Shown piece after piece: positions 32,191-40,028 of a DNA stretch of 64,000 bases. The DNA is from Acidihalobacter ferrooxydans (lineage in GTDB: Bacteria; Pseudomonadota; Gammaproteobacteria; DSM-5130; Acidihalobacteraceae). The notes beneath the pieces were generated by a model. That model worked only from the letters and a program-made list of their open reading frames with translations. It did not search any database and had not been told where the DNA came from. The DNA lies in the NCBI RefSeq assembly GCF_001975725.1, contig NZ_CP019434.1:2253486-2317485 (forward strand), read 5' to 3'. Position 1 is the first letter of the stretch. Each line of letters starts with the position of its first letter. Made by a program: the position numbers and the translations under genes.

Positions 32191-32529
32191 TCAGCTGCGC
32201 GTCGAGGTGATCTCTGCGTCGCGCCCGCTGCCATCGGCATCCGGCGTCTTCGGCAGGATGCCTTCGACTTCGTTGTGCACGCGCGCGATGATGTGCGCCG
32301 CCACCAGTCCGTCGCCCACGCGCTCGCACGCATCGGCGCCGGCGCGTACCGCCGCGTTCACCGCGCCCGTCTCGCCGCGCACCAGCACGGTCACGTAGCC
32401 GCCGCCCACGAACTGACGTCCGATCAGGCGCACTTCCGCCGCCTTGGTCATCGCATCGGCCGCTTCGATCGCCGGCACCAGGCCGCGCGTCTCGATCATG
32501 CCCAGGGCAATACCGCTGTAATCCGCCAT
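32191..32529 (-). CDS. csoS1B: Carboxysome shell hexamer protein CsoS1B
   Basis: This 112-residue single BMC-domain protein is nearly identical to the next two paralogues over residues 1-95 (ALGMIETRGLVPAIEAADAM; pore region RQFVGGGYVTVLVRG). It differs by a ~14-residue C-terminal extension (DADGSGRDAEITSTRS), the feature that marks CsoS1B in Halothiobacillus. Hexamers tile the shell facets, with pores for bicarbonate and RuBP. Confidence 0.93.
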   Translation of the reverse strand: MADYSGIALGMIETRGLVPAIEAADAMTKAAEVRLIGRQFVGGGYVTVLVRGETGAVNAAVRAGADACERVGDGLVAAHIIARVHNEVEGILPKTPDADGSGRDAEITSTRS

Positions 32530-32579
32530 TGTTTATTCCTCGATCAGTCGTTATACGACTCGGTCCTGGCAAACCGACC

Positions 32580-32876
32580 TTAAGCGGTCGGCGCCTTCGG
32601 CAGGATGCCTTCGACTTCGTTGTGCACGCGCGCGATGATGTGCGCCGCCACCAGTCCGTCGCCCACGCGCTCGCACGCATCGGCGCCGGCGCGTACCGCC
32701 GCGTTCACCGCGCCCGTCTCGCCGCGCACCAGCACGGTGACGTAACCGCCGCCCACGAACTGACGTCCGATCAGGCGCACTTCCGCCGCCTTGGTCATCG
32801 CATCGGCCGCTTCGATCGCCGGCACCAGGCCGCGCGTCTCGATCATGCCCAGGGCAATACCGTTGTACTCCGCCAT
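32580..32876 (-). CDS. csoS1A: Carboxysome shell hexamer protein CsoS1A
   Basis: This 98-residue BMC-domain shell protein differs from its neighbours at only a few residues (MAEYNG at the start, KAPTA at the end). Position as the middle paralogue gives the name, following the csoS1C-csoS1A-csoS1B order. A 50-base spacer separates it from csoS1B and 45 bases from csoS1C. Confidence 0.92.
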   Translation of the reverse strand: MAEYNGIALGMIETRGLVPAIEAADAMTKAAEVRLIGRQFVGGGYVTVLVRGETGAVNAAVRAGADACERVGDGLVAAHIIARVHNEVEGILPKAPTA

Positions 32877-32921
32877 TTCCTTATCCTCTCGTTAAAAGTA
32901 AATCTGGCCGTTACCCACGCC

Positions 32922-33218
32922 TCAGGCGCTCGGGGCTTTCGGCAGGATGCCTTCGACTTCATTGTGCACGCGCGCGATGATGTGCGCCGCCACCAGACCG
33001 TCACCCACGCGCTCGCACGCATCGGCGCCGGCGCGTACCGCCGCGTTCACCGCGCCCGTCTCGCCGCGCACCAGCACGGTCACGTAACCGCCGCCCACGA
33101 ACTGACGTCCGATCAGGCGCACTTCTGCCGCCTTGGTCATCGCATCGGCCGCTTCGATCGCCGGCACCAGGCCGCGCGTTTCGATCATGCCCAGGGCAAT
33201 ACCGCTGTAATCCGCCAT
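32922..33218 (-). CDS. csoS1C: Carboxysome shell hexamer protein CsoS1C
   Basis: This 98-residue BMC-domain protein (MADYSG...KAPSA) forms the hexameric facets of the shell. It is almost identical at DNA level to the two downstream copies, including synonymous positions, while the spacers between genes differ. It is the first of three tandem paralogues after the pentamer genes. Confidence 0.92.
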   Translation of the reverse strand: MADYSGIALGMIETRGLVPAIEAADAMTKAAEVRLIGRQFVGGGYVTVLVRGETGAVNAAVRAGADACERVGDGLVAAHIIARVHNEVEGILPKAPSA

Positions 33219-33301: not shown

Positions 33302-33562
33302 TCACGCGACCGGTTGCGGAATTTCCCAATTGTCGATAATTCCGCAAATGGTCAGATCCGTCTGAATACTCGGGTCGCGCAGCGCGTAGCGCGCGGCACT
33401 CCCTGCGGTGGTAAACACCCAACTGCCTTCCGGCGCGCCGACCGGGTCAACCGCCACACTCAGCGCACCGCTTTGTGACTCCAGCACCCGCAAATCCTCG
33501 GTGCCGAGGCCCGGCACGCGGCGGGTACAAACGAGATCATCCTTGACGCGCATGATTTCCAT
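33302..33562 (-). CDS. csoS4B: Carboxysome shell vertex pentamer protein CsoS4B
   Basis: The 86-residue protein belongs to the EutN/CcmL/CsoS4 family of pentamers that cap icosahedral vertices. It shows MRVKDDLVCTRRVPGL at the start, LSVAVDPVGAPEGSWVF in the middle and LTICGIIDNW near the end. It begins 3 bases after the csoS4A stop. Confidence 0.92.
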   Translation of the reverse strand: MEIMRVKDDLVCTRRVPGLGTEDLRVLESQSGALSVAVDPVGAPEGSWVFTTAGSAARYALRDPSIQTDLTICGIIDNWEIPQPVA

Positions 33563-33565
33563 CGT

Positions 33566-33820
33566 TCAGTCCTGCTGCGCCCAATGGTCGATGATGCCGA
33601 CGATGGTCAAATCCGATGGATAGTCCTTGGCGCCGGCCGCTTCGCGCGCCGCCGAAGAACCCACGCAGATCACCCAATCGCCCGGCACACAACCCACCGC
33701 ATCGACCGCCACGCTCGGCGTACCGCCTTCTTTTTCTGCCACCACCAGCAGCGGCCGATGACCCATGGTGTCGATCCGGTTCGTCGACACCAGGGTTTTA
33801 ATGACCTTCATGATCTTCAT
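33566..33820 (-). CDS. csoS4A: Carboxysome shell vertex pentamer protein CsoS4A
   Basis: This 84-residue BMC-P family protein has MKVIKTLVSTNRI at the start, VAVDAVGCVPGDWVICVGSSAARE in the centre and LTIVGIIDHW near the end. Pentamers close the vertices and limit CO2 leakage. The start overlaps the csoSCA stop as ATGA. Confidence 0.93.
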   Translation of the reverse strand: MKIMKVIKTLVSTNRIDTMGHRPLLVVAEKEGGTPSVAVDAVGCVPGDWVICVGSSAAREAAGAKDYPSDLTIVGIIDHWAQQD

Positions 33821-35379
33821 GCGTCGTATCCTTCCTGCCTGACGCTACGCACACAGTATTCACCGATCAGACACAGACTTTCGGCACCGGTCACGTCCGA
33901 CACACACAGCGCAAACTTGAGTGCGCCGTCCGGCACCCGTCCGGCATAGCGCGCCTGGATACCACGCATCACGCGTTTGCAACGCTCGGCAGCCCGTTCG
34001 CGTGCGCCGGGAATCACCGATGCGTAGTGAAAATGCACCATGATCGGTACCGGGAAACCACGCGACAGATTCAGTTTCTCGAAAATATTGAGGCCGACAT
34101 CGACGCAAGCCGCACCTTCTTCCAGCGTGTCCAGGTGCGCGAAGTAATACAGATTGCGCATCTGAAGTTCGTCAATTGAGTCACCCACGCAGATGAATCG
34201 CTCGCCGTGACCGAGATGCGCGTAACGGCCTTCGTGATGCTGAATCACATATTCGATCTGCGACAGATTCGCTTCGATCAATTGGGTGACAAGGCGCTTC
34301 AATCCGGCACTGGCCGAGCTGCCCACACTGGCCGCCGCGCGGTCCACGGATTGCATGATGTGCGCGCGGGCCTGAGCCACCGGCATACCCAGCGTTTCGC
34401 GGTATATCTGCGCCGCCTCGACGGCGACCGCCTCACTTGGCTCGCCCTGCGCATCCGGCAGATGCACGCGGATTGCATCGAGATCGGTATCCAGCCCGAG
34501 TACGAGAATGTCCGGCCCCAGGCCGGCGCCAAAGGCGTGCGCGACACCATAGCGCAACTGTTCCAGTCGTGTGATCGCAGCGCTGCGGGCGGCTCCTTCA
34601 TCACTGCCGTGCGCCGCACATCCTTCCTTCGACGGCGCGGAGCTGCTGTAGTGATAGACCGCCATCTTGAGATAGCGCGCGCCGAGGCGGGCGCTCAGGC
34701 GCTGCGCCAGTTCGCGCTGCGTCCAGTCCGACAGATCGAGATCGATATCGAACAGCGCGCCGGCATACGCCTTGAGCAACACCGACTCACTGGTCGGCGC
34801 GATACGCAATACGAAAGGCAGCAGCCCCTGCAAGCGACCGTCGGCACATGGGGTGATATCCAGTGTGTGATAGCCGCACTCGGCGATGAACTCGTCATCG
34901 ATCACCATGCCGTGCAACCAGTCGTCCTGCTCCTGCGGCGCTTGCTTCGCGCTCACGCGCACCGCTTCGAACAGACAGTGCGCGTACAGGGCCGCCATAT
35001 CCAGCCCCTCGATCCACGAGCGCTTGAGCATTTCGGCCGGCAGTTCGAAGCCGAGGCGCGCCCGTGTCAGCTGTTGGGCCTGGGCAGGAAATGTTTCGTC
35101 CCGCGGCAGTCTGGCGACCGCCTGCAAGGTCTGCTCAACACTGTCGAAGCGCGCCTGGAGCACCGCCTCGTAGTCATACAGCGCCTTGTTCAAGCCACCA
35201 TCGACCAGCGCGTGCTCGCAGGGCTGACGCCCATCGAGATCGCAGGCCGGGTTGGCCATGACCACGCGTGCCGGTGTCACCGCATCAGCACAGCCACGCA
35301 GCAGGGTGCCGCCGGGCAGATGCGACGCGTGACTGCGTACGCGGCGCTGGGCCTGTCGTTGTTGAACGCGCGATAGCAT
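33817..35379 (-). CDS. csoSCA: Carboxysomal carbonic anhydrase CsoSCA
   Basis: The 520-residue beta-like carbonic anhydrase is close in length to the Halothiobacillus enzyme (~514). The active site reads CADGR with Cys178, Asp180 and Arg182. The remaining zinc ligands are His243 and Cys254 in the segment YHYSSSAPSKEGC. It dehydrates bicarbonate to CO2 inside the shell next to RuBisCO. ATG at 35,379 lies 4 bases after the csoS2 stop and gives the basic N-terminus (MLSRVQQRQAQRRV) expected to bind cargo; an open frame extends upstream inside csoS2. Confidence 0.93.
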   Translation of the reverse strand: MLSRVQQRQAQRRVRSHASHLPGGTLLRGCADAVTPARVVMANPACDLDGRQPCEHALVDGGLNKALYDYEAVLQARFDSVEQTLQAVARLPRDETFPAQAQQLTRARLGFELPAEMLKRSWIEGLDMAALYAHCLFEAVRVSAKQAPQEQDDWLHGMVIDDEFIAECGYHTLDITPCADGRLQGLLPFVLRIAPTSESVLLKAYAGALFDIDLDLSDWTQRELAQRLSARLGARYLKMAVYHYSSSAPSKEGCAAHGSDEGAARSAAITRLEQLRYGVAHAFGAGLGPDILVLGLDTDLDAIRVHLPDAQGEPSEAVAVEAAQIYRETLGMPVAQARAHIMQSVDRAAASVGSSASAGLKRLVTQLIEANLSQIEYVIQHHEGRYAHLGHGERFICVGDSIDELQMRNLYYFAHLDTLEEGAACVDVGLNIFEKLNLSRGFPVPIMVHFHYASVIPGARERAAERCKRVMRGIQARYAGRVPDGALKFALCVSDVTGAESLCLIGEYCVRSVRQEGYDA

Positions 35380-35383
35380 GACG

Positions 35384-38104
35384 TTAGCCACGCGCTCCGC
35401 CGGACACGGTGACCACCGCGCCACGCTTGGCCGCGCCCGCCGAGCCGGTGACCGGGCTGTCCGGCACCTCGGGGCGTTCGAGGTCACGATAGCCCTGTGC
35501 GTTGCGGCCCGCGCCGCGCGGCGCACCGCGCATCGTCGGATTGCGACTCACCGAAAAGTGGCCTTCGGTACCGGTTACGTGCTGCTGCGTACCCCAGGCA
35601 TCGCCAGTGATCGTCGCGTTGCGCTGACTGGCTTCGCCGGTCAGGCGCTGACGGACTTCTGCCTGCGCTTGCGCGGTCTGCACCGCCGCGGCACCCGTAT
35701 CGCGATGGCGAAATTCCGGCGTACCGGTAATCAAGCCTTCCGCACGGTTGGCGCTGCCGCTAATCCGCGTATTGCTCATCAACGAACCGGTCACGGCGCT
35801 GCTGGCGCGTTGCTCGAAAGCCTGTCGCGCGGGCGAGGCTACGCTGAAATCCTCCGGTGCGGCAGGTCGCGGTGCCTGCGGATGCTGCTGGCGCCAAGCC
35901 ACGAAACGGCCACTCGCTGCGCTGTCGACAGCGCATTCGGCCGGCATATTGTCGGCACCGACATAGGGCGTGCCGGTCACGGGCTCACAGGCGCCGCGCG
36001 CGTCGCCGGTCATGAGCGAACCGCCCGCCCCAGGGCGGTCGCCGGTGATGTCGGAAGCCGAGACGATGCCGCGGGTCGGCACGCGCGCCAGCTGCTCGTC
36101 CGCCTGCGACGCCTCGCAGAACTGCGCGTACTGGCCCTGACCGATGTACGGCGTGCCACTGATCGGTGCGCAGCTGCCGAACTCATCGCCAGTCATCTTG
36201 ACCGAACGTCCAATGCCAGTACCGGTGATCACATCACCCTGCCAGGTTTGATCGACGGAAACCTTGCTCACGGCATGATCCGCCGGGGTGCTATCGACGC
36301 AGACCGCCTGCAGGTCCTGCGCACCGACATAGTCGGTTCCGGTGACGAGGTTGCACCGACCCTCCTCGTCACCGGTCATTTTTGGGTTGGAGTTGACCTC
36401 CGTACCGGAAACACGGGTGCCCGCCCGGGTGGACGCCACTCCGACTTTGGCCGGCGCTTCCAGGGCACAGGCGTCGCCGAAGTCTTGACTGTTGAAGTAC
36501 GGCGTACCGGTAATTGCGCGACAAGAGCCCGGCTCGTTGCCGGTCATCTTCAGATCACGCGCCACGGAGGTGCCAGTGACCGGCTGCTGGTTCGGCGTCG
36601 ACATGACGCTCACCTTGCGCGGCTGGCGCGGTGCAGCCGTGCCGCAGAACTCGGCGTACTGTTCGGAACCGAGATATTCGGTGCCGCTCACCGTGCGGCA
36701 GGCGCCGGATTCAATGCCGGTGATACGCGCCGACTGGCCAACCGCAGTGCCGGTCACTGCGCTGCCGTTACCGGTCTCGCTGCGTGCGACCTTGCCGGGG
36801 GCCGGACGCGCGGCGTCGGCTCGAGCGTAGCGCGTGCCGGTGATCTCCCGGCCTGCACCCGCCTCGCCGCCGGTCACCCGGCTTTCGGCGGCAACCATGG
36901 TGCCGGTCATCGTCTTGCCCTTCTGCGTCTGCGTAACGCCAACCTTCTCGGCCGGAACCTGCGGGCGAGTCGAGCAGATGCTCTCGAAATGGTCGGCTGA
37001 CAGGTACTGCGATCCGGTTATTTCGCGACAGGCGCCAAATTCGTTGCCGGTCACCGCGGTATCCGGCATGACGCTGGTACCGGACACGGGTCGACCCGCG
37101 AACGTGTGGCTGTTGGTCACCTTGGCCGGACCGGCTTCCGGTCGCGTCTTGCAGAAGGCGTCGAACTGCTCCGCACCGATGTATTCGGTACCTGTGACAG
37201 GTCGGCAGGAACCGGCTTCGTTACCGGTGACCTGCGGCGCGCGCTCGACCATGGTGCCGGTCACGCCGTGTCCCGCCAGGGTATGGCCTTCTTCAACCTT
37301 CGGTGGCGCGGACAGCGCACGCGCAGTCCGGCGACCGCTGGACTTGCGGCTGACATCGCCCGCTTGCTGCCTGCCGGCTTCCGCACGCCCGGTCAGCGAC
37401 TGCACCTTGCGGCGCTGCATCGCGATCTGGCGCCCGGTCACGCCCTTGTCAAGCGCGACACGCCAATCCTGATCCGGCAGGTATTTGGCAATTTTGGTGG
37501 CCTGCGCCGCACGCTTCATGCCGGCCTTGCCCTCGATCGCCAATGCCTTGCGGCGCGCCTGGGCAATGTCACGGCCGCTGCTGCGGCCATGATTCATGGC
37601 CAGTCGCGCACTGATTTCCTTCGGCGACAGCGACTCTTTACCCGCGGCACTGACCGCCGCGCGCCCCTGCTCAACAGCCTGCGCCGGTTCGCGCCGGGCC
37701 TTTTCGCCCTTGCAGCCACAGCCGCAGTCGGCTTCGCGGCGTGCCGCGGCCTGTACTTGCTGGCGTGGCGCACGCGTCGGACGCGTCCCTGCGGACTGCG
37801 CACCGGGTAACGCGGCCTTGCCGCCACGGCTCATAGCCTCTCGGCGCTGGCGCGCCTTGGCGCGGCCAGACGCTTCGGTATTGGGCGCCGCACCAACAGT
37901 CGGTCGCGGCGACTGTGTCGCAGTGGCAACCGCAGGCCGTGCAACGGCGGCAGACGCCTGTTGCACGGCAGCAGCCGAGCGATGGCGCCCTGCGGGTTGC
38001 ACCGCACGCTTGCCCACGGTAGCCATCGCCTGGCGGCGTTGGCGCGCGAGCTCACGACCGGACAACCTCACTTCAGCATGCGTTTCAGATGAAATCTGCG
38101 TCAT
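35384..38104 (-). CDS. csoS2: Carboxysome scaffold protein CsoS2
   Basis: This 906-residue intrinsically disordered scaffold has four N-repeats with the basic G-R-x3-(A/Q)-x-x-R-R core at ~16-32, 80-96, 177-193 and 224-240. These are the RuBisCO-binding elements. A middle region of V/ITGT and TGNE/TGDE repeats, many with a single Cys (e.g. GSCRPVTGTEYIGAEQFDAFC), follows, and a C-terminal shell-anchoring part ends in VTVSGGARG. A Cys cluster (CGCGC, 127-131) lies between N-repeats 2 and 3. A -1 frameshift site at codon 575 would give a truncated CsoS2A of ~578 residues beside full-length CsoS2B. Confidence 0.94.
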   Translation of the reverse strand: MTQISSETHAEVRLSGRELARQRRQAMATVGKRAVQPAGRHRSAAAVQQASAAVARPAVATATQSPRPTVGAAPNTEASGRAKARQRREAMSRGGKAALPGAQSAGTRPTRAPRQQVQAAARREADCGCGCKGEKARREPAQAVEQGRAAVSAAGKESLSPKEISARLAMNHGRSSGRDIAQARRKALAIEGKAGMKRAAQATKIAKYLPDQDWRVALDKGVTGRQIAMQRRKVQSLTGRAEAGRQQAGDVSRKSSGRRTARALSAPPKVEEGHTLAGHGVTGTMVERAPQVTGNEAGSCRPVTGTEYIGAEQFDAFCKTRPEAGPAKVTNSHTFAGRPVSGTSVMPDTAVTGNEFGACREITGSQYLSADHFESICSTRPQVPAEKVGVTQTQKGKTMTGTMVAAESRVTGGEAGAGREITGTRYARADAARPAPGKVARSETGNGSAVTGTAVGQSARITGIESGACRTVSGTEYLGSEQYAEFCGTAAPRQPRKVSVMSTPNQQPVTGTSVARDLKMTGNEPGSCRAITGTPYFNSQDFGDACALEAPAKVGVASTRAGTRVSGTEVNSNPKMTGDEEGRCNLVTGTDYVGAQDLQAVCVDSTPADHAVSKVSVDQTWQGDVITGTGIGRSVKMTGDEFGSCAPISGTPYIGQGQYAQFCEASQADEQLARVPTRGIVSASDITGDRPGAGGSLMTGDARGACEPVTGTPYVGADNMPAECAVDSAASGRFVAWRQQHPQAPRPAAPEDFSVASPARQAFEQRASSAVTGSLMSNTRISGSANRAEGLITGTPEFRHRDTGAAAVQTAQAQAEVRQRLTGEASQRNATITGDAWGTQQHVTGTEGHFSVSRNPTMRGAPRGAGRNAQGYRDLERPEVPDSPVTGSAGAAKRGAVVTVSGGARG
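36339..36386 (-). promoter_or_regulatory. Programmed -1 ribosomal frameshift signal in csoS2
   Basis: On the coding strand the heptamer C CCA AAA (36,386-36,380) is in the zero frame, at codons Pro574-Lys575. A 4-nt spacer (ATGA) and a perfect 12-bp stem, CCGGTGACGAGG with CCTCGTCACCGG around a 13-nt loop, follow at 36,375-36,339. After a -1 slip translation reads Asn-Asp-Arg and stops at TGA (36,371-36,369). Halothiobacillus csoS2 is known to make CsoS2A and CsoS2B by -1 frameshifting. That this site is used here is inferred. Confidence 0.85.
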
Positions 38105-38195: not shown

Positions 38196-38525
38196 TTACG
38201 CGCCGCGGTGAACCACGAAGCTCAAGCCCTGACTCTGGGCGTAGTTGTCGTAGGCGACGAAGCGCACGACATAGTTCGGGAACGCGCGGTGGCAGGCCTC
38301 GATTTCGCTCAGAACCGTATCGACGTTTTCCTCACCGAACATCGGCAGGCCCCACATGTGCCAATAGTTGTCGCTGATTTCTTCGGGGTGGACGTATTCC
38401 ACCGCCGGATTCCAGCCCTGGGCAATCGCGTAGGCGATCTGGTTGCGCACCTGTTCCGGGGTGAACGCCGGCAGGTACGAGAAGGTTTCGTAGCGTTTGC
38501 TACCAAGATAAGGATTCACAGCCAT
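38196..38525 (-). CDS. cbbS: RuBisCO small subunit, form IA
   Basis: This 109-residue protein has the small-subunit signatures [33 protein letters not shown] and [13 protein letters not shown]. It caps the L8 core to give L8S8. It lies 81 bases downstream of cbbL with AGGAG shortly before its ATG, and upstream of csoS2, as in all cso operons with form IAc RuBisCO. Confidence 0.96.
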
Positions 38526-38606: not shown

Positions 38607-40028
38607 TTATTTGTGGCCGCTGTCCAGCTTGTCGACGGTGTCGAATTCGAACTTGATTTCCTTCCAGGTTTCCATGGCAACCTTGAGCTCGGGCGAATGC
38701 GCCGCGGCTGCGGTCAGGATTTCCTTGCCTTCCACCTCAAGTTGACGGCCCTGGTTGCGCGCCTCGACGCAGGCCTCGACCGCCACGCGGTTGGCGTGCG
38801 CACCGGCCGCGTTGCCCCAGGGATGACCGAGGGTTCCACCGCCGAACTGCAGTACGGAGTCGTCGCCGAAGATGTTGACCAGCGCCGGCATGTGCCACAC
38901 ATGGATACCGCCGGAGGCGACAGCAAATGCGCCGGGCATGGAACCCCAGTCCTGATCGAAGAACAGGCCGCGCGAGCGGTCTTCCGGCACGAAGGACTCG
39001 CGCAGCAGGTCGATCCAGCCCAGGGTCGCATCGCGGTCGCCCTCAAGCTTGCCGACCACGGTGCCGGTGTGCAGGTGATCGCCACCGGACAGGCGCAGAA
39101 TCTTGGTCAGCACACGGAAGTGGATGCCGTGGTGCGGATTGCGGTCGAGCACGGCATGCATCGCGCGATGGATGTGCAGCAGCATACCGTTGTCCCGGCA
39201 CCAGTTGGCCAGGCCGGTGTTGGCGCAAAAACCGCCGGTGATGTAGTCATGCATGATGATCGGGCTGCCGATTTCCTTGGCGTACTCGGCGCGCTTGTAC
39301 ATCTCTTCCGGGGTCGGCGCGGTGACGTTCAGATAGTGACCCTTGCGCTCGCCGGTGTCTGCCTCGGCTTTGAGGATGGCTTCCTGGACGAAGTCGAAGC
39401 GGTCACGCCAGCGCATGAACGGCTGCGAGTTGATGTTCTCGTCGTCCTTGGTGAAGTCCAGACCGCCGCGCAGGGCTTCGTACACGGCGCGGCCGTAGTT
39501 TTTTGCGGACAGGCCGAGCTTCGGCTTGATGGTGCAGCCAAGCAGCGGGCGCCCGTATTTGTTCATCTTGTCGCGTTCGACCTGAATGCCGGCCGGCGGG
39601 CCGCCGCAGGTCTTGACGTAGGCAATCGGGAAACGCACGTCTTCGAGGCGCAGGGCGCGGATGGCCTTGAACCCGAACACATTGCCCACCAGCGAGGTGA
39701 ACACGTTGACGACCGAGCCTTCCTCGAACAGATCGATGGGGTAAGCAATGAACGCGTAGAAGCAGGTGTCGTCGCCCGGCACGTCCTCGATGCGGTAGGC
39801 ACGCCCGCGGTAGTAGTCCATGTCGGTCAGCAGATCGGTCCACACCGTGGTCCAGGTGCCGGTCGAGGATTCGGCGGCCACCGCCGCGGCGGCTTCCTCG
39901 CGGTCGACACCGGCCTGCGCGGTGATCTTGAAACACGCCAGCAGGTCGGTATCAAGCGGCACGTATTCGGGCTGCCAGTATGTCTGTCGATAGTCTTTGA
40001 CGCCTGCGTCAAACTTTTTAACGCTCAT
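38607..40028 (-). CDS. cbbL: RuBisCO large subunit, form IA (carboxysomal)
   Basis: The 473-residue protein contains the catalytic segment TIKPKLGLS (Lys168), the carbamylated Lys194 with metal ligands in [18 protein letters not shown] and [18 protein letters not shown]. Form IA features and leadership of the cso operon show it is carboxysomal. It fixes CO2 onto ribulose-1,5-bisphosphate in the Calvin cycle. A strong GAGGAG lies about 7 bases before the ATG, and a divergent cbbR lies 350 bp upstream. Confidence 0.97.

Follow-up and report, generated by a model that had tools for sequence, protein, structure and literature searches.

The window, that is the whole stretch of 64,000 nt of Acidihalobacter ferrooxydans DNA analysed here, carries a standard alpha-carboxysome operon in the order cbbL, cbbS, csoS2, csoSCA, csoS4A, csoS4B and three csoS1 genes (Table 1). 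The NCBIfam search returned no match for cbbS. The ORF listed for csoSCA begins upstream and the true start of the gene is probably further inside, while the three tandem csoS1 paralogs gave near-equal matches to NF053791. The csoS2 product can be aligned with CsoS2B of Halothiobacillus neapolitanus in the PDB. Its scores against the NCBIfam models NF050159 and NF050161 were far under the curated cut-offs, and automatic naming may therefore miss this CsoS2.

Table 1. Genes of the carboxysome operon and elements of the csoS2 frameshift module (window positions)
Feature	Position	Strand	Basis
cbbL (Rubisco large subunit)	38607..40028	minus	NCBIfam NF003252
cbbS (Rubisco small subunit)	38196..38525	minus	position and sequence
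csoS2 (alpha-carboxysome scaffold CsoS2; CsoS2B, 906 aa)	35384..38104	minus	ORF; Pfam CsoS2_M, E = 2e-154
Shine-Dalgarno-like GGAGGT (codons ACG GAG GTC)	36396..36401	minus	sequence; 9 nt ahead of the heptamer
Slippery heptamer C CCA AAA (Pro574-Lys575)	36380..36386	minus	in frame (AAC CCA AAA ATG)
4-nt spacer ATGA	36376..36379	minus	sequence
Stem 5′ arm CCGGTGACGAGG	36364..36375	minus	sequence, RNA fold
13-nt loop AGGGTCGGTGCAA	36351..36363	minus	sequence, RNA fold
Stem 3′ arm CCTCGTCACCGG	36339..36350	minus	sequence, fold; core pairs kept in 59 aligned genes
-1 frame tail AAT GAC CGG (N-D-R), then stop TGA (36371-36369)	36369..36380	minus	
csoSCA (carboxysomal carbonic anhydrase)	33817..35526	minus	TIGR02701, match from residue 105
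csoS4A and csoS4B (shell vertex proteins)	33302..33820	minus	TIGR02703, TIGR02704
Three tandem csoS1 shell-protein paralogs	32191..33218	minus	NF053791 for all three

The putative frameshift module is located in the sixth of the seven M-repeats of the window CsoS2. Its heptamer follows the X XXY YYZ pattern in frame with csoS2, and the arms CCGGTGACGAGG and CCTCGTCACCGG form 12 perfect and continuous pairs. The earlier note had placed a heptamer, a 4-nt spacer, a 12-bp stem and an Asn-Asp-Arg-stop tail at these bases, and all four elements were recovered there. It had further proposed a product of the CsoS2A size class. In support of this, reading into the -1 frame gives a predicted CsoS2A of 575 + 3 = 578 aa, near the class of ~570 aa, compared to 906 aa for CsoS2B.

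In H. neapolitanus, -1 frameshifting in csoS2 was proven by Chaijarasphong et al. in 2016 (described in PMC5009743, PMC11365436 and PMC11481516) and the site was published in M-repeat 6 (PMC11481516). P574-K575 of the window protein aligned with P566-K567 of H. neapolitanus CsoS2B (PDB sequence). The short H. neapolitanus form is 570 aa long, 3 of which come from the -1 frame (PMC5009743); since 567 + 3 equals this published CsoS2A length, the proven site is at the same codons. A genome coding for the identical H. neapolitanus protein segment carries C CCA AAG, the spacer ATGT, a CCGGTGAC stem and the tail D-V-R-stop. The two sites therefore have in common the gene, M-repeat 6, the homologous Pro-Lys codons within C CCA AAR, a 4-nt spacer, a 3′ stem beginning with CCGGTGAC and a 3-residue -1 tail ahead of TGA. 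They differ in the second codon (AAG in H. neapolitanus, AAA in the window), in the stem (broken by an A.C mismatch in the former, 12 continuous bp in the latter), in the tail (DVR and NDR, respectively) and in the upstream GGAGGT, carried by the window and not by H. neapolitanus. As judged from sequence, the window site is very probably a csoS2 -1 programmed frameshift site, orthologous to the proven one. The earlier note had presented it as an independent instance. This claim falls: position-exact homology with the H. neapolitanus site, together with the csoS2 tree described below, rules out an independent origin.

We took csoS2 genes from related genomes and retained 65 non-redundant slip-positive ones, window included. 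At the site, these genes carry C CCA AAA (48 genes) or C CCA AAG (17 genes) with a 3-residue -1 tail, and they span alpha-, beta- and gammaproteobacteria. On a csoS2 tree built without the M6 region, presence and absence of the site required 4 changes among 107 genes. Among the collected genes, the site was absent from the Thioalkalivibrio clade whose CsoS2 forms are the longest, as well as from the shorter CsoS2 forms. A 2016 review predicted frameshifting for 79 of 162 csoS2 genes (PMC5009743).

Codon choice at the site was strongly constrained. Proline was encoded by CCA at 65/65 sites versus 294/3799 elsewhere in the same genes, a difference which is partly built in as the sites were chosen by their heptamer. 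When synonymous conservation was scored codon by codon, relative to the codon usage of the respective gene, it peaked at window codons 569-588 with a mean z of 11.4, compared to 5.4 for the best stretch elsewhere. This peak takes in codons well beyond the heptamer and reaches background level by codon 589. When stem stability was compared with synonymous shuffles, the mean z was -2.26 for the 65 sites and -0.38 for 411 other repeats of these genes. Conservation of heptamer, stem and codon choice, with a synonymous constraint peaking exactly at the site, thus supports the selection at the RNA level which the earlier note had suggested.

Two CsoS2 forms have been reported, at ~1:1, for Thiomonas intermedia and H. 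neapolitanus (PMC4499774). The heptamer is present in both (L072 and L123, respectively), and in L072, a genome bin named Thiomonas intermedia, it is accompanied by an upstream GAGG. Occurrence of the heptamer and GAGG in a species with two reported forms supports a link between anatomy and product.

An in-frame C CCA AAA was also observed at the end of the N-domain in two same-genus csoS2 genes without the M6 site (L013, codon 239 and L030, codon 236). Both are followed by a 3-residue -1 tail, no strong close stem was seen, and these heptamers may be due to chance.

The upstream GGAGGT is an addition to the earlier note. With -10.2 kcal/mol, it ranks among the 4 strongest of 2728 anti-Shine-Dalgarno positions in csoS2, and the remaining 3 fall inside the stem-loop; the 3′ end of the organism's own 16S rRNA is GGATCACCTCCTTT. 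A GAGG core was found at the equivalent place in 59 of the 65 slip-positive genes, in 42 of them as GGAGG. Within codons for [TS]E[VI], GGAGG occurred in 41/60 cases at the site, compared to 10/87 at other places in these genes (P = 8e-13, a value overstating independence since the orthologs are related and not independent observations), as well as in 6/78 cases in slip-negative genes. Codon usage alone would give 9.3/60 at the site instead of the 41/60 seen. The Glu codon at the site is GAG in 59/60 genes, and Glu569 GAG reached z = 18.

Internal Shine-Dalgarno sequences stimulating -1 frameshifting are described with a spacing of 9-14 nt (PMC5009743), a range which includes the 9 nt of the window. 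In four inspected folds of the region -45 to +60, no common pairing partner was found for the upstream GAGG, for which the models nevertheless gave partial pairing (mean 0.64). Neither GGAGGT nor GAGG was found at the equivalent place in H. neapolitanus and near relatives, in line with the report that no 5′ Shine-Dalgarno is apparent in this species (PMC5009743). Its absence from the proven example implies that the element is not essential in general. The csoS2 of Nevskia sp. HOG36 (L119) keeps the protein motif SEVAPSPKLTGDE and has T CCC AAG in place of the heptamer, GGAAGT upstream (GAG to GAA) and a weaker stem; judging from this sequence, the module has been lost naturally in this gene. 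L115 and L118, where the heptamer is absent, have AAA and GAA at the equivalent codons. Joint loss of heptamer and GAG in these three genes, although from few lineages, favours a shared function. The upstream GGAGGT is probably to be considered a candidate stimulator acting through anti-Shine-Dalgarno pairing.

GGAGGT and ATG576, the codon following the window heptamer, could alternatively constitute an internal ribosome-binding site leading to a C-terminal CsoS2 fragment, as for the short form of CcmM. In beta-carboxysomes, CcmM likewise provides a shell-linked form and a shorter form from a single scaffold gene; its short form results from internal initiation, and the gene is unrelated to csoS2. 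ATG, GTG or TTG indeed follows the heptamer in 44/65 genes. However, a non-start codon is present there in the remaining 21/65, and GGAGGT lies more than 15 nt from the ATG, outside the 5-9 nt at which a start codon would follow a Shine-Dalgarno and too far for good initiation. Internal initiation moreover leaves the heptamer, the stem and the -1 stop unexplained, and we consider it very improbable.

Another possibility is that heptamer and stem are a functionless by-product of the repeat codons, since M-repeats share TGDE...VTG and the VTG and TGD codons are self-complementary, GGTGAC and GTCACC being able to pair. We used codon shuffles of the window csoS2 as chance background. An in-frame CCCAAAR appeared anywhere in 561 of 3000 whole-gene shuffles (19%), as the by-product explanation would have it, but CCCAAAR followed 2-9 nt downstream by a perfect stem of at least 9 bp appeared in only 4/3000; the actual stem is 12 bp long. 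For the 42 nt that follow the heptamer, a folding energy of -25.4 kcal/mol was obtained, and 0/200 dinucleotide shuffles were as stable (z = -4.1). Under synonymous-codon shuffling, the 45 nt at the site gave z = -3.8 (0/100). For the five further M-repeats which the repeat pattern picked up in csoS2, z ranged from -0.9 to +1.3, with no comparable excess of stability. A by-product would also not account for a synonymous constraint that is local and the strongest of the gene, nor for maintenance of the site across three proteobacterial classes, so that this explanation is scarcely credible. Transcriptional slippage at the A-run CCCAAAAATG, yielding mixed mRNAs instead of ribosomal frameshifting, is just as hard to credit: the window does contain five A in a row, but this is short for polymerase slippage, CCCAAAG with just three A before G occurs in 17/65 genes and in H. 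neapolitanus, and slippage of the polymerase has no need for an in-phase heptamer or a stem.

We also examined the stem across relatives. The core GGTGAC/GTCACC pairs hold in 59/59 aligned genes, with CG, UA or UG at columns 19-41. Past the core, most of the 59 genes have an A.C mismatch or a 5′ bulge and then a short inner helix. In the window and three family members, codon 586 (36348-36350) is changed from CCC to CTC (Pro586 to Leu), by which A.C becomes A-U. This results in 12 continuous pairs in the window and in L003; in L002 and L004, a mismatch is found close to the stem base. L025 shows a continuous extension made of other bases (GTCC/GGAC). RNA structure may have been the driving force behind the Pro586-to-Leu change.

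Pairs with double changes numbered 1 in the common structure and 4 in the 12-bp form, and the 27 double-change cells of the latter exceeded all 500 shuffles. Such limited covariation can be attributed to the coding of the conserved TGDE...VTG motif by the stem region, which fixes many stem bases. Since the core pairs hardly vary, structural support comes mainly from the synonymous constraint.

Stem continuity could bear on efficiency. In dnaX, a single base change giving uninterrupted pairing brought frameshifting up to 160% of the wild-type level, and this also when the Shine-Dalgarno was missing (PMC5009743). By analogy with this case, the window site, whose stem is continuous, may shift more than that of H. 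neapolitanus.

In the mechanism we consider most likely, the 12-bp hairpin would stall an approaching ribosome whose Pro-tRNA and Lys-tRNA are paired with CCA and AAA, respectively. The two tRNAs would re-pair one base back, on CCC AAA, in a tandem -1 slip, after which Asn-Asp-Arg would be added before the stop. The resulting CsoS2A would contain the Rubisco-binding N-domain and most of the M-region and would lack the shell-anchoring C-domain, with full-length CsoS2B produced alongside. In the window and most orthologs, pairing of GGAGGT with the 16S anti-Shine-Dalgarno probably contributes a backward pull, as at the E. coli dnaX site. Sequence anatomy, orthology, conservation and synonymous constraint are established by the analysis; that slippage takes place in this organism, how efficient it is and how the upstream element acts are inferred.

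The E. coli dnaX site (tau/gamma) also combines an internal Shine-Dalgarno at 9-14 nt, a heptamer and a strong stem-loop, and gives a truncated product from the -1 frame. In contrast to the window, its heptamer is A AAA AAG instead of C CCA AAA, there is no homology, and the role of its Shine-Dalgarno is proven, where that of the window is deduced. The likeness is one of working only, and the window site is not a member of the dnaX type. We lean slightly towards the view that most proteobacterial csoS2 sites, that of the window among them, consist of a three-part cassette in which an internal Shine-Dalgarno acts as stimulator, unlike the H. neapolitanus site. Upstream element and continuous stem are provisionally considered as new points for csoS2 frameshift sites.

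The presence of CsoS2A beside CsoS2B was reported to have an effect on shell size (PMC11481516). If most csoS2 genes have a conserved upstream Shine-Dalgarno stimulator, which H. neapolitanus as the only model examined in detail lacks, an additional tunable part would take part in setting the CsoS2A:CsoS2B ratio. If our reading is true, lineages would tune this ratio by trading the upstream element, the third base of the heptamer and stem continuity, and such tuning would act on carboxysome size and Rubisco loading. The unbroken stem and GGAGGT would then predict a CsoS2A share in the window organism above the ~1:1 of H. neapolitanus. The natural variants, namely the window, the H. neapolitanus type and the Nevskia loss, would in that case provide carboxysome engineering with a series of test variants already at hand.
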